This document shows positions 1-5,786 of a stretch of DNA of 8,880 bases, piece by piece. Below the pieces are notes generated by a model that saw nothing but the letters and a program-made list of their open reading frames with translations, was not told the origin of the DNA and searched no databases. The DNA is taken from contig JALTEL010000240.1 of NCBI GenBank assembly GCA_027073945.1, positions 1-8,880 on the forward strand. The letters are read 5' to 3'. The translations under genes were made by a program, and so were the position numbers. Source of the stretch: Caldifarciminota bacterium. Its GTDB lineage: Bacteria; WOR-3; Hydrothermia; UBA1063; CAJXJZ01. How positions within the stretch are numbered: the first letter of the stretch is position 1; each line of letters opens with the position of its first letter.

Positions 1-125
1 TATGTATTATTTGTTTTTCGACTAACAATATACCAGAAAGCGAAAGGCTTTGCACGTTAAAAGTTTATTATTTCAAGAGGTTATACCTCAAATCAGCAGT
101 AAAAATTAAGTCCGAAACTTGAGTT
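1..125 (+). repeat. Right-end part of a MITE-like inverted-repeat element (copy 1)
   Basis: This AT-rich stretch has no convincing reading frame. Its last 18 bases (108-125, aagtccgaaacttgagtt) are identical to 3600-3617, the right end of the inverted-repeat element in the middle of the window. A second shared block, tttcaagaggtta (71-83), recurs at 3582-3594. The distance between the two blocks is about 20 bases longer here, so the copies are diverged relatives rather than recent duplicates. The left end should lie upstream of the window, and that side cannot be seen. Glycosyltransferase coding sequence starts directly after the repeat. Short hairpins are possible at 77-89 (gaggt/acctc, 3-base loop) and 37-51 (aaagc/gcttt), but both are weak. 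Calling it a mobile element is inference from the repeat structure and the broken neighbour; no transposase is visible. Confidence 0.6.
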
Positions 126-629
126 AATGCGCTTAACATCCTTCAAAAGAAGGGTGTCCCATTCAGGGCAAGCATTGCGGGGGACCCCTTTGATGTCACC
201 TTTGATGAAGTGAAGGCCGGGATCAAAAAACTGGGGTTAGATGAAGAGGTTTTTGCCGTGGGGCCAAAGTATGGGGAGGAAAAGTCCAGGCTTTTCCTCC
301 AAGCCGATATTTTTTGCTTTCCAACTTATTATCCTCCTGAAGCTTTTCCACTCGTGCTTCTCGAGGCGATGCAATTTGGAAAACCGGTTGTTTCCACGTA
401 TGAAGGGGCTATCCCTGAGATTGTGGATGAGGGCGTGACCGGCTTTTTGGTACCCCCAAAGGATTTTCACGCGCTTTCCGAGAAATTAGAGATCTTAATA
501 GCAGATTCGGAATTGAGAGAAAGGATGGGTAAGGCAGGGAGAATGAAGTTTTTTGAAAAGTACACAGTGGACATTTTTGAGAGAAATCTTTTGAAGGTTT
601 TTGAGGAGGTGGCAGATGGCATTAGATAA
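126..629 (+). pseudogene. Glycosyltransferase family 4 (GT-B), C-terminal domain only; 5' end lost at a repeat
   Basis: The frame encodes about 167 residues matching the C-terminal, nucleotide-sugar-binding half of GT4-type retaining glycosyltransferases. It opens at once with family-like sequence (NALNILQKKGVPFRASIAGD), then LGLDEEV, ADIFCFPTYYPPEAFP, the catalytic-type E-x7-E pattern (EAFPLVLLE), GKPVVST, and GAIPEIVDEGVTGFLVPP. The family is normally about 350-400 residues, so the acceptor-binding N-terminal domain is missing. An in-frame TGA at 120-122 lies inside the upstream repeat, so the reading frame cannot continue leftwards. A GTG at 210 is the first start codon of a long open frame, but it has no good ribosome site and would drop conserved sequence that reads on upstream of it. 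The simplest reading is a gene cut by insertion of the repeat element, with the 5' half possibly surviving beyond the window. The 3' end is intact and overlaps the next gene. Acceptor and sugar are unknown. Confidence 0.8.
604..610 (+). promoter_or_regulatory. Strong Shine-Dalgarno site deciding the DUF362 start
   Basis: The sequence aggaggt ends 5 bases before the ATG at 616, which is ideal. It lies inside the last codons of the glycosyltransferase frame. It decides in favour of ATG 616 over the upstream TTG at 601, which would place the start on top of the ribosome site. Confidence 0.85.
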
Positions 630-1968: not shown

Positions 1969-1974
1969 GTCGTG

Positions 1975-3396
1975 ATGGTAAGTTATAGCGAATCTAAATG
2001 GAGACGGTTTTTTTGGAGGCTTCCAAAATTTTTGCAAGACACGGCTGCCTCTCTGTATGGATGGCATCTGGATTCAAAGATTTTTAATGGGTATTATAGG
2101 AAGACTTATAAATTCCTCGAGGAAAGCCAGTGGCATTCCGCTGATAAATTGCGGGACTATCAGGGTAGGCAATTAATTAGTTTTCTCAGGTATGCTGTTA
2201 AAAACGTTCCTTATTACCGTGATTATTTTGCAAGACAAAGTTTAACGGTAGAAGACATAAGGACAGTGGATGACCTGAAACTATTCCCCTTATTAGACAA
2301 AGAAACGGTCCGGTTTAATGCCGATCGATTGATCGCGGAACCTTATAGAAAAAGAACCTCTCAGGTTGTTAATGTTCATACAAGTGGGACCACAGGCAAA
2401 GGCCTGCATTTGAAGTTATCCAAAGAGGCTTTTCAGCGCGAGTATGCCTTTAGATATTTACATCTCTCGTGGGCAGGGATAAAACCTAATATGAAAATGG
2501 CATTTTTCGCAGGGCATCCAGTAACGCCACCGGAGCGTTTGTCTCCTCCTTTTTGGGCTGAAGACAAAATAAATAAAAGAATTTATTTTTCTTCTCAGCA
2601 TATAACGAATGCCACTTTACCAATATATATAGATAAATTGAAAGAATTTAAGCCTGAGCTGATTCGTGGGTATCCAAGCTCTGTCTATCTCATAGGGGTG
2701 GGAATTCTTGAGCATGGAGCAAAAGGCGTTTCACCGAAGGCGGTATTTACAAACTCTGAAACCCTTTTGGGTTATCAGCGCGAGGTTATTGAAAGGGCTT
2801 TTTCATGTAAGGTTTTTGATTGGTATGGAAACACTGAACAGGTCGCGAATATTGTTGAATGTGAGCGGGGAAACAGACATGTAAAGGCTGAACACAGTTT
2901 TGTGGAATTTCTAAAACAGGATGGAATGCCAGCAAAGCCAGGTGAGCTTGCCGAAATGGTATGTACTGGATTTGGAAATTATGCTATGCCGCTTATACGT
3001 TATCGAGTTGGTGATATGGCTGTATTGTCTGATCGCGGTTGTTCGTGTGGCAGAAATGATTTAATCGTTGATAAAATTGTCGGACGGGTTGAGGATATTG
3101 TGGTTACACCAGATGGCAGACATGTCGGAAGGCTTGACCATCTGTTTAAAGACATGTTGAACGTTAAAGAAGCGCAGATTGTACAAGAAATGATAGAGGA
3201 ACTTAAGATTCGCATTGTTAAAAGAAAAGGGTTTAATGATAAAGACTTACAGCTTCTTGAGAAAGAAGCTCGTCTAAGATTGGGCAATAGTATACGCTTT
3301 CAATTTGAATTTGTCGATCATTTAGAAAGGGAACCTTCGGGGAAGTTGAGGTTTGTTATTTCAAGGATCCCGAGAGACGCGCAGGTGATTTTTTAA
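1975..3396 (+). CDS. PaaK/CapK-like adenylate-forming enzyme (phenylacetate-CoA ligase family)
   Basis: A 473-residue member of the ANL adenylating superfamily, in the branch annotated as phenylacetate-CoA ligase or CapK. The core motifs are all present: the phosphate-binding loop TSGTTGKG (residues 136-143), WYGNTE (283-288), YRVGD (343-347), GCSCGR (355-360), GRVEDIV (370-376) and the C-terminal SGKLRFVIS (455-463), whose lysine is the expected adenylation lysine. It should therefore activate a carboxylate as an acyl-AMP, possibly passing it to CoA or another acceptor. CapK-type members are common in capsule clusters, but their substrates are mostly unknown, and phenylacetate itself is unlikely here. 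GTG at 1972 directly precedes the chosen ATG at 1975, neither with a good ribosome site. The stop codon lies in the TTTAAA that borders the downstream inverted-repeat element. The C-terminus looks complete, so the element does not truncate it. Confidence 0.88.
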   Translation: MVSYSESKWRRFFWRLPKFLQDTAASLYGWHLDSKIFNGYYRKTYKFLEESQWHSADKLRDYQGRQLISFLRYAVKNVPYYRDYFARQSLTVEDIRTVDDLKLFPLLDKETVRFNADRLIAEPYRKRTSQVVNVHTSGTTGKGLHLKLSKEAFQREYAFRYLHLSWAGIKPNMKMAFFAGHPVTPPERLSPPFWAEDKINKRIYFSSQHITNATLPIYIDKLKEFKPELIRGYPSSVYLIGVGILEHGAKGVSPKAVFTNSETLLGYQREVIERAFSCKVFDWYGNTEQVANIVECERGNRHVKAEHSFVEFLKQDGMPAKPGELAEMVCTGFGNYAMPLIRYRVGDMAVLSDRGCSCGRNDLIVDKIVGRVEDIVVTPDGRHVGRLDHLFKDMLNVKEAQIVQEMIEELKIRIVKRKGFNDKDLQLLEKEARLRLGNSIRFQFEFVDHLEREPSGKLRFVISRIPRDAQVIF

Positions 3397-3621
3397 ACTC
3401 AAGTTTCGGAGTTAATATATCAGCCTGTAATTAAAGAGTTTTTTTATGCAACACACGAATTAGTCTTATGTTGCTATATTAAACGTATAATATATTAATA
3501 AACTATTACTAATCATTATATATTTTTATTGAATACTGCAACAAAAAATAGAATTTAGCAGACACGGCTATTTTTACTTAATTTTCAAGAGGTTAATCCA
3601 AGTCCGAAACTTGAGTTTAAA
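3392..3621. repeat. MITE-like element with perfect 19-base terminal inverted repeats (copy 2)
   Basis: The segment starts with tttaaactcaagtttcgga (3392-3410) and ends with its exact reverse complement (3603-3621). The outermost six bases on both sides are TTTAAA, itself a palindrome, so they could be a target-site duplication rather than part of the repeat. The core repeat would then be ctcaagtttcgga. The inside is about 190 bases, very AT-rich (one sampled line is 15 % GC), with no open frame and no transposase. The last 18 bases recur at 108-125 in the same orientation, and tttcaagaggtta (3582-3594) recurs at 71-83. Size, terminal repeats, lack of coding and multiple copies fit a miniature inverted-repeat transposable element that would need a transposase elsewhere. 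A chromosomal regulatory or recombination repeat is the alternative. It fills nearly the whole gap between two genes, which is otherwise empty. Confidence 0.75.
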
Positions 3622-3629
3622 GTAGGGAT

Positions 3630-5786
3630 ATGAAACAGTTGACCCAAAAACTAAAATCAGGTCAGATGCGTGTTTTAGAGGTTCCTATTCCATCTCTGGA
3701 ACCGGGGGCTGTGCTGGTCCAAAATTTTTATTCCCTTATCTCAGCGGGGACGGAATCCTCCACTGTTCAGGCCGCCCGCAAGGGTTACATCGGCAAGGCA
3801 AAAGAGCGGCCGAAACAGGTCAAACAGGTTCTTGATACCCTCAAGGCTAAGGGGCCTATTCAAACCTATCGGGCTGTCATGAAAAAGCTGGACGCCTATT
3901 CGCCTCTTGGCTACTCTTGCGTGGGTAAGGTCATTGGCGTGGGCGAGGATATCTTCGATATCCGGGTCGGCGATATGGTCGCCTGTGGCGGGAAAAGTGC
4001 CTGCCACGCGGAGGTGGTTGCCGTGCCACGCAATCTTACAGTCAAATTGCCGGAATTAAACCCTCAAGATCCGGATAAACACATCAGGGTGGCGGCCTAT
4101 AACAGCCTGGGGGCTATCGCCCTTCAGGGAGTCCGCCAGGCAGACACGCGACTGGGAGAGGTTTGCGCCGTCATTGGGCTTGGACTGATCGGGCAATTGA
4201 CATGCCTGATGCTTCGTGCCTCCGGGATAAAAACCATAGGGATTGACATAGATTTGGCCATGGTTGATATGGCGGCGAAACACTGTGCCGATTACGCCCT
4301 GTTACGGGATACCCCAGAGATTGAGGAACGCGTTTACGAAATTACAGAGGGCCTTGGATGCGACAGCGTCATTATCACGGCCGCTACATCTTCTCTTGAC
4401 CCCATTAATTTTGCTGGGGCGATTGCGCGAAAAAAGGCAACGATTGTGGTCCTGGGAGCCGTTCCAACAGGATTTGACAGGGAACCGCATTATTACAAAA
4501 AAGAACTGACCGTTAAGATGTCCTGTTCCTATGGCCCAGGGAGATATGACCCTTTTTATGAGGACAAGGGAATCGATTATCCGGCCGCGTATGTCCGCTG
4601 GACTGAGAATAGGAACATGCTGGCTTTTCAGGAATTTGTCGCTTTGGGGAAGGTAGATCCAACCTATTTAACAACCCATGTTTTCTCGTTAGAGGACTCC
4701 CCCAAGGCCTATGACATGATCATGGAAAAATCAGAACCTTTCGTGGGTATTTTGATTGCCTATGATGGGGAGAAAAAACAGGTTCAGGAAAGGGTCAATT
4801 GCATAAAGATAAAAGGGAACCAGAATAAGGTCGCCATAGGTTTTATTGGGGCGGGTTCATACGCCCAGAGTTACCTTTTGCCTAATATCCCCAAAGACAA
4901 GGCTATCCTTAAAGGGGTTATGACCTCATCTTCGGCAAGCGCAAGATCTGTCGCGGACCGATACGGGTTTGAATTTTGTACGAGCGATGAAGGTGACATT
5001 TTAAATGACCCGGATATAAATGTCGTTTTTATCGCTACCCGCCACAATACGCACTCTAAATATGTGATTGACGCCTTGAAAGCAGGCAAGCATGTTTTTG
5101 TGGAAAAACCTTTGTGTCTCGACAGAGACGAGTTAGAAACGATTAAATCTCTTCTCACGACCTCTGATTTGAGGCTTATGGTTGGGTTTAACCGCAGGTT
5201 TTCTCCGTTGACTGAGTTCTTGCGCGAAAAAATGGGGAGTGGCCCCAAGGCTATGATCTACCGGGTTAATGCCGGAGCGATTCCCGCGGATTCCTGGATT
5301 CAGGACAGGGATGTTGGGGGAGGACGCGTTCATGGAGAGGTGTGCCATTTCGTGGATTACTTGAGTTTCATGGCCGGGTCACTTCCGGTCTCTGTTTTTG
5401 CCCGATCCATGCCGGATCCTCAGGGCTTGAATGATACGCTTAGTGTGTCACTTCAATTTGCTAATGGTTCCATCGGTACTGTCCATTATTTCTCGAATGG
5501 CTCTAAATCCATGCCCAAAGAATACGTAGAAATATATAGCCATGGCACTACCGGGGTGCTGAATGACTACAGAGAGGCTTTGGTGTATTCCCGTGGAAAG
5601 CCAAAAAAGAGAAAATTAATGACCCAAGATAAAGGGCAGAAAGAAGAGGTTCGGTTGTTTATTGAGAGTGTTCTGAAAGGAATCGAATCACCCATTTCCT
5701 GGAAGGATATCCTCAGGGTTACAGAGGTCAGTTTTGCTATTGAAGAATCCCTGCGATCTGGGCGGGTAATAACATTTGAAGGCTGA
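3630..5786 (+). CDS. Bi-domain oxidoreductase: medium-chain dehydrogenase fused to Gfo/Idh/MocA-type dehydrogenase
   Basis: A 718-residue fusion. Residues 1 to about 380 form a GroES-like plus Rossmann medium-chain (zinc-dehydrogenase-like) domain with SLISAGTES (36-44), PLGYSCVGKV and the dinucleotide loop AVIGLGLIG (180-188) followed by an acidic GIDID. After a short lysine-rich linker, residues from about 400 form a Gfo/Idh/MocA oxidoreductase with a second NAD(P) loop, VAIGFIGAGSYA (401-412), the catalytic-type VEKPL (491-495), GFNRRFSP (519-526) and a CHFVDY segment (H573, D576). Both domains keep their cofactor loops, so two redox steps on a sugar or sugar nucleotide are plausible. This fusion recurs in polysaccharide clusters, but its substrate is not established to my knowledge. 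ATG 3630 matches the MKQ- start usual for the family; the ribosome site (aggg, 3624-3627) is close and weak. GC is about 43-60 % in sampled lines, above its upstream neighbours. Confidence 0.92.
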   Translation: MKQLTQKLKSGQMRVLEVPIPSLEPGAVLVQNFYSLISAGTESSTVQAARKGYIGKAKERPKQVKQVLDTLKAKGPIQTYRAVMKKLDAYSPLGYSCVGKVIGVGEDIFDIRVGDMVACGGKSACHAEVVAVPRNLTVKLPELNPQDPDKHIRVAAYNSLGAIALQGVRQADTRLGEVCAVIGLGLIGQLTCLMLRASGIKTIGIDIDLAMVDMAAKHCADYALLRDTPEIEERVYEITEGLGCDSVIITAATSSLDPINFAGAIARKKATIVVLGAVPTGFDREPHYYKKELTVKMSCSYGPGRYDPFYEDKGIDYPAAYVRWTENRNMLAFQEFVALGKVDPTYLTTHVFSLEDSPKAYDMIMEKSEPFVGILIAYDGEKKQVQERVNCIKIKGNQNKVAIGFIGAGSYAQSYLLPNIPKDKAILKGVMTSSSASARSVADRYGFEFCTSDEGDILNDPDINVVFIATRHNTHSKYVIDALKAGKHVFVEKPLCLDRDELETIKSLLTTSDLRLMVGFNRRFSPLTEFLREKMGSGPKAMIYRVNAGAIPADSWIQDRDVGGGRVHGEVCHFVDYLSFMAGSLPVSVFARSMPDPQGLNDTLSVSLQFANGSIGTVHYFSNGSKSMPKEYVEIYSHGTTGVLNDYREALVYSRGKPKKRKLMTQDKGQKEEVRLFIESVLKGIESPISWKDILRVTEVSFAIEESLRSGRVITFEG

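Follow-up and report, generated by a model that had tools for sequence, protein, structure and literature searches.

Known elements of this kind

MITEs are well known in bacteria, where they are mostly intergenic and AT-rich according to the available part of a review (PMC10969869). A close described example is the Chunjie MITE of Geobacter uraniireducens (Chen et al. 2008), with Chunjie-1 at 235 bp and copies of 178–235 bp in the same text (PMC10969869). Likened by that description, the element analysed here (E2) shares with Chunjie a similar size, terminal and direct repeats, and a Desulfobacterota-type host. One Chunjie copy also lies within an operon, the structure of which is undisturbed according to the title of the description and disrupted according to the review passage (PMC10969869). 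Ca. Thiomargarita nelsonii, a sulfur-oxidising gammaproteobacterium, harbors many-copy MITEs; compared by the description in the accessible text, these differ in having a 10-bp or TATAG direct repeat (PMC4853749). Two groups of insertion sequences are outlined in the part of PMC2266710 considered here. The ISPepr1 subgroup has ends of the form YT-AA-YTT---A, lengths of 1500–1600 bp, duplications of 7–8 bp and AT-rich targets; the IS1634 family has AT-rich duplications of 5–6 bp and ends of the form C-----YT, and is without a complete YREK motif (PMC2266710).

E2 lies between two genes in the 8,880-nucleotide stretch of DNA that was analysed (the window). It is best explained as a non-autonomous MITE whose insertion-sequence lineage is of IS4 type and ISPepr1-like (probability about 0.93). 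This reading is supported by 13-bp ends held in common, AT-rich duplications of 6–7 bp, near copies elsewhere, longer IS4-type relatives and the empty site of a sibling element. MITEs as a kind are long known, and the family bounded by CTCAAGTTTCGGA is a fresh example. A search of the literature by title and abstract start gave no description of a MITE family bounded by CTCAAGTTTCGGA, and the end sequence is not printed on either strand in the open-licence literature; subscription papers and ISfinder lie outside the scope of both statements. The analysis defines the family by its end, target, parent type and copies, and the CTCAAGTTTCGGA end should ease annotation of such elements. The family is abundant in some sulfur-oxidising symbionts and also occurs in Desulfobacterota. 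E2 itself would illustrate how a MITE can sit at the junction of two operon genes with neither of them broken.

Structure of E2 and its surroundings

An earlier note on this DNA had described E2 as an AT-rich, non-coding segment bounded by perfect 19-base inverted repeats. The arms are confirmed at 3392–3410 and 3603–3621, and with spacers of up to 250 they form the longest perfect inverted repeat of the window; the longest in 100 dinucleotide-preserving shuffles of the window was 13 (mean 9.6). Perfect as the arms are, the terminal repeat is not 19 bases long: it is a 13-bp repeat plus the 6-bp TTTAAA, which is palindromic and therefore mimics part of an inverted repeat. The sites of relatives show that TTTAAA is the duplicated target. 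The segment is indeed AT-rich, with GC contents of 0.28 and 0.30 in its two composition windows against 0.36–0.58 in all others, and it is non-coding, the sole ORF of at least 20 aa that touches it being 20 aa long on the minus strand. E2 thus has the size and ends of a MITE (<500 bp, perfect 13-bp ends, no ORF above 20 aa) and a target site duplication, TTTAAA, on either side. Collapsing the segment to a single TTTAAA places the stop codon 9 bases (agtagggat) before the oxidoreductase ATG, as the earlier note had calculated.

Table 1. Elements, repeats and genes of the window discussed in the text
Feature	Position	Strand	Basis or remark
E2, MITE proper (preferred reading), 218 bp, non-coding	3398..3615	.	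repeats, alignment, ORF check, near copies elsewhere
Left terminal inverted repeat, CTCAAGTTTCGGA, 13 bp	3398..3410	+	read directly
Right terminal inverted repeat, CTCAAGTTTCGGA on minus strand	3603..3615	-	read directly
Target duplication TTTAAA, left copy	3392..3397	.	holds TAA stop (3394-3396) of PaaK-like gene
Target duplication TTTAAA, right copy	3616..3621	.	
E1, visible end of second element	1..123	-	terminal repeat at 111-123
Glycosyltransferase gene, 3' part, cut by E1	126..629	+	Glycos_transf_1 match
Upstream gene, "PaaK-like" in the earlier note	1972..3396	+	
Downstream gene, two-domain oxidoreductase	3630..5786	+	

Four matches to CTCAAGTTTCGGA occur in the window at ≤2 mismatches, three of them exact, compared with a mean of 0.23 in shuffles. 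The third exact copy, which the earlier note had missed, is the terminal repeat of E1. In the gene behind it, residues 2–139 align to profile positions 36–170 of the 172 in Glycos_transf_1; because this domain starts at profile position 36 directly behind E1, E1 cuts the gene. Over 117 bases E1 is 99% identical to a contig end (L134/L175) from the MAG whose E2 copies are closest, and over its visible length it has 68–72% identity to transposase-proximal insertion-sequence ends from further Desulfobacterota MAGs (among them L147/L185 and L155/L187). The 123 bases of E1 visible in the window hold no transposase sequence. E1 is probably the end of an insertion sequence. Several contigs, the window and L134 among them, stop 117–127 bases inside such an end, which suggests assembly breaks at repeats. 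The glycosyltransferase gene cut by E1 belongs to the same operon as the E2 site. The upstream gene has no Pfam match at E 0.001.

Copies of E2 in relatives

Several copies per genome, as expected of a MITE, occur in the relative G001 (Desulfobacterota MAG 'Deltaproteobacteria bacterium S016'), which has three full copies (94–96%) and two partial ones. Each partial copy has a flank in common with a full one, and assembly duplication may account for the pair. A second genome (G002) has one copy at 86% plus a stretch that resembles the ends only. Across the class of G001, E2 matches were found in 4 of 46 genomes (nine matches at E 1e-5). Mean column identity in an alignment of seven copies is 91%. 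Both flanks can be read in six copies, window included, and exact duplications of 6–7 bp surround five of these: TTTAAA (window), TAATTAA, TTTAAT, TAATTA and CTTATAA. The sixth (L189) has a damaged right end and is without an exact duplication. The earlier note had proposed a search of relatives for further copies, and they are present elsewhere with duplications of their own; neither of the outcomes that it named against insertion (no other copies, or the same 230 bases conserved at this locus) was observed. A blastn search of plasmid records with the element gave five records at E 0.2 to 9, none covering 80%. Matches to a 16-base end in viral contigs (20 stretches, a single match in each) were read as chance and set aside.

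A wider family sharing the end

A scan of species genomes with WACTCAAGTTTCGGASTT gave at least 119 stretches; by our own estimate, about 30 matches in the complete scan are due to chance, and the single matches in L052, L063 and L107 look like such cases. End pairs were defined as inward-facing, <2 kb apart and with ≤2 mismatches per end, which gave 50 pairs in the listed loci and the window. Among these matches, 31 of 50 pairs are flanked by exact duplications of 6 bp (15 pairs) or 7 bp (16 pairs), compared with a mean of 1.4 of 50 when flanks are shuffled among pairs. The remaining 19 listed pairs comprise one with 10 bp (L116), two with 5, one with 3, four with 1 and eleven with none, and a few of these eleven sit at locus ends. 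Pair lengths among the matches listed are 45–545 bp, save for L071 (1527 bp), L086 (1638 bp) and L021 (1640 bp). A 7-bp duplication flanks L071 and L086, and none flanks the IS-sized L021.

The titles of the listed matches are mostly from Gammaproteobacteria and Desulfobacterota. Five gammaproteobacterial genomes have 81, 56, 45, 21 and 41 exact ends, versus 0–1 for the reversed pattern. At ≤1 mismatch, four Desulfobacterota MAGs have 11, 15, 2 and 20 ends, with reversed controls of 1, 1, 10 and 5; there is no excess in G003, where the end is rarer than its reversed control (2 vs 10). Duplications also flank pairs at two loci from Bacteroidales MAGs (7 bp in L033, 5 bp in L127). The inner sequence of a match in a Saprospiraceae MAG (L092) recurs in Alteromonadaceae MAGs from one and the same series (L042, L059), and the Saprospiraceae contig may be mis-binned.

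Some units are very short. In a Thiogranum MAG, a 45-bp unit (L135:2795-2839) consists of two ends and a 19-base spacer within a 7-bp duplication. It has no second copy in about 1.63 Mb of the 2.8-Mb genome, a figure that includes five loci which may overlap, and is either an extremely small mobile element or an in-place deletion. Units of 65 bp (L108:3857-3921) and 78 bp (L089:6567-6644) in Microbulbifer have exact 6-bp duplications. Apparent open frames over the joined flanks of L090 and L108 are antisense to other ORFs and were dropped.

Candidate parent among IS4-type transposases

The earlier note had suggested looking for a transposase gene between ends of the E2 type. Longer elements with such genes do exist, and in the copies with exact ends the genes are broken. 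Open pieces of L071, L086 and L079 match Pfam DDE_5 and DDE_Tnp_1 above cut-offs. Their best NCBIfam model is transpos_IS4_4, and only the first L071 piece passes its cut-off. The transposase frame is broken in L071, L086 and L021, and in a 3.3-kb Colwellia copy (L079:4427-7746) the transposase gene is split by further ORFs, which we take to resemble another insertion sequence, IS3-like. In none of the loci read do two exact CTCAAGTTTCGGA ends enclose an intact transposase gene. An unbroken frame of 484 aa occurs in L193, with ends that differ in 2–3 letters and TAACTTA on either side. IS4_4 matches occur in 13 of the 46 class genomes, four of them above cut-off. Neither the L071 transposase nor the IS4_4 family has a match in G001, the MAG nearest to the window, although MAGs often lack repeats. 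YREK (Y-2-R-3-E-6-K) is present in six of six loci read, and DDE spacers of 102/111 and 104/131 in the two proteins measured fit the IS4 pattern D(60-110)D(100-150)E.

These features can be compared with the ISPepr1 subgroup as far as it is described in PMC2266710. CTCAAGTTTCGGA agrees with every fixed position of the subgroup's end consensus, YREK and AT-rich targets are found here also, and the long copies are near its 1500–1600 bp, two of the three being slightly longer at 1638 and 1640 bp (PMC2266710). Subgroup duplications are 7–8 bp, whereas among the listed pairs here 16 of 50 have 7 bp and 15 of 50 have 6 bp; a further difference is that subgroup members have a transposase, which E2 lacks (PMC2266710). 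IS1634 parentage was the first guess. In the same account its AT-rich duplications of 5–6 bp are similar and its ends (C-----YT) are compatible with CTCAAGTTTCGGA (PMC2266710), but it was rejected because YREK is complete here. The IS1634 NCBIfam model reaches 27 and 19 bits, its cut-off being 100. By the published subgroup description, the putative parent is of the IS4 family and ISPepr1-like, with no claim to subgroup membership.

Filled and empty sites

A clean empty site comes from a sibling MITE in Thiodiazotropha (L037:2247-2494), which is 248 bp long and flanked by TTACAA on either side. At the corresponding place in the sister genome G426 the sequence is GATCTGATTTGCAATAGCGGCTATTATAGGG, without an element, and has a single TTGCAA where the filled site has two copies of TTACAA. 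In 14 more genomes (L290–L303) the flanks are 15–149 bases apart, which is too short for the 248-bp MITE. The comparison thus covers 15 of 21 other matched genomes, six with short matches being left out. The G427 contig also carries an unrelated repeat of about 165 bp (L037:3738-3903), 96–99% identical among many copies in G427 and G426.

None of the 30 oxidoreductase loci checked is an empty allele of the E2 site. For the G002 copy there is likewise no empty site, as relatives match a single flank, and a query with L072 gave many copies and no clean empty site. At E 1e-100, 37 of the 395 genomes in the phylum encode a relative of this oxidoreductase. At two of the 30 loci (L223 and L224), a gene like the upstream one (25% and 32% identity) directly precedes the oxidoreductase gene and ends 7 and 12 bases before its ATG, without an insert; in L223 a nearer GTG fits as a start too. 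These gaps are in line with the 9 bases left by collapsing the segment, without amounting to an empty allele of the same site. That E2 inserted cleanly into an existing operon and duplicated its target, as the earlier note had proposed, is supported by other copies, longer transposase-carrying elements and the insert-free gap in these two relatives.

Proposed origin of E2 and its possible effect on the operon

A transposase of an ISPepr1-like insertion sequence in the same host would have recognised the ends of E2, and E1 may be the end of that mobilising insertion sequence. E2 would have moved into a TTTAAA site with the upstream gene's stop codon inside it. With the six bases duplicated, the stop would be kept, as would the downstream gene's own start region. 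An alternative is that an insertion sequence decayed and lost its interior at this very site, as opposed to a MITE having transposed at its present size. It would also have insertion-sequence-like ends, and a 13-base stretch is common to part of the right side of E2 and to E1. Such decay is scarcely credible given units of 217–218 bp with the same interior and different flanks at other places (L140, L142, L144, L141, L190). A fixed regulatory or RNA element, such as a promoter, terminator, leader or riboswitch, might merely resemble a transposon, and both the intergenic position and the arms, which can form a long hairpin, suit it. The DNA fold is better than in any of 200 shuffles (z -4.9), an excess that the arms alone would give, and the RNA fold with flanks has z -1.9, with 6 of 200 shuffles equally good. 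Near copies elsewhere with their own duplications speak against a fixed element, and a conserved RNA was rejected because E2 has no Rfam match at E 1 and none of 48 predicted pairs shows a compensatory change in seven copies. We consider this alternative very improbable.

The earlier note had further proposed that E2 may supply a promoter or uncouple the two halves of the operon, which the sequence features do not bear out: promoter-like sites are at chance level (2 vs 1.2 in shuffles), with one weak site inside E2, and no terminators were found. A MITE with a real effect through promoter gain, mRNA stability or lost coupling has precedents in other MITEs, e.g., Correia elements, in the part of the review consulted (PMC10969869). 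With E2 in place, 233 bases separate the stop from the start, so that any direct translational coupling would be lost, although transcription may run through. With its single promoter-like site at chance level, a real effect seems unlikely, if conceivable. As a MITE of ISPepr1-like lineage, E2 appears to be a near-neutral passenger.

A broader and rather doubtful proposal is that the 13-bp end is a common mobilisation signal, identical in Gammaproteobacteria, Desulfobacterota and probably Bacteroidota. MITEs with unrelated interiors would then arise repeatedly and be mobilised, even from one species to another, by any ISPepr1-like transposase available, and AT-rich, stop-bearing targets would leave insertions at gene ends unpunished. 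Of 44 distinct sites whose duplications are exact, five (L032, L102, L108, L282 and 3392–3397 of the window) have the stop of an ORF of at least 120 aa inside the duplication, compared with 3 of 79 occurrences of identical words elsewhere in those loci, with ORFs called mechanically. These numbers, too few to be more than suggestive, would fit AT-rich targets with a built-in stop making gene ends tolerated landing places. The L108 unit sits between two convergent ORFs, and its putative hairpin might serve as a terminator there.
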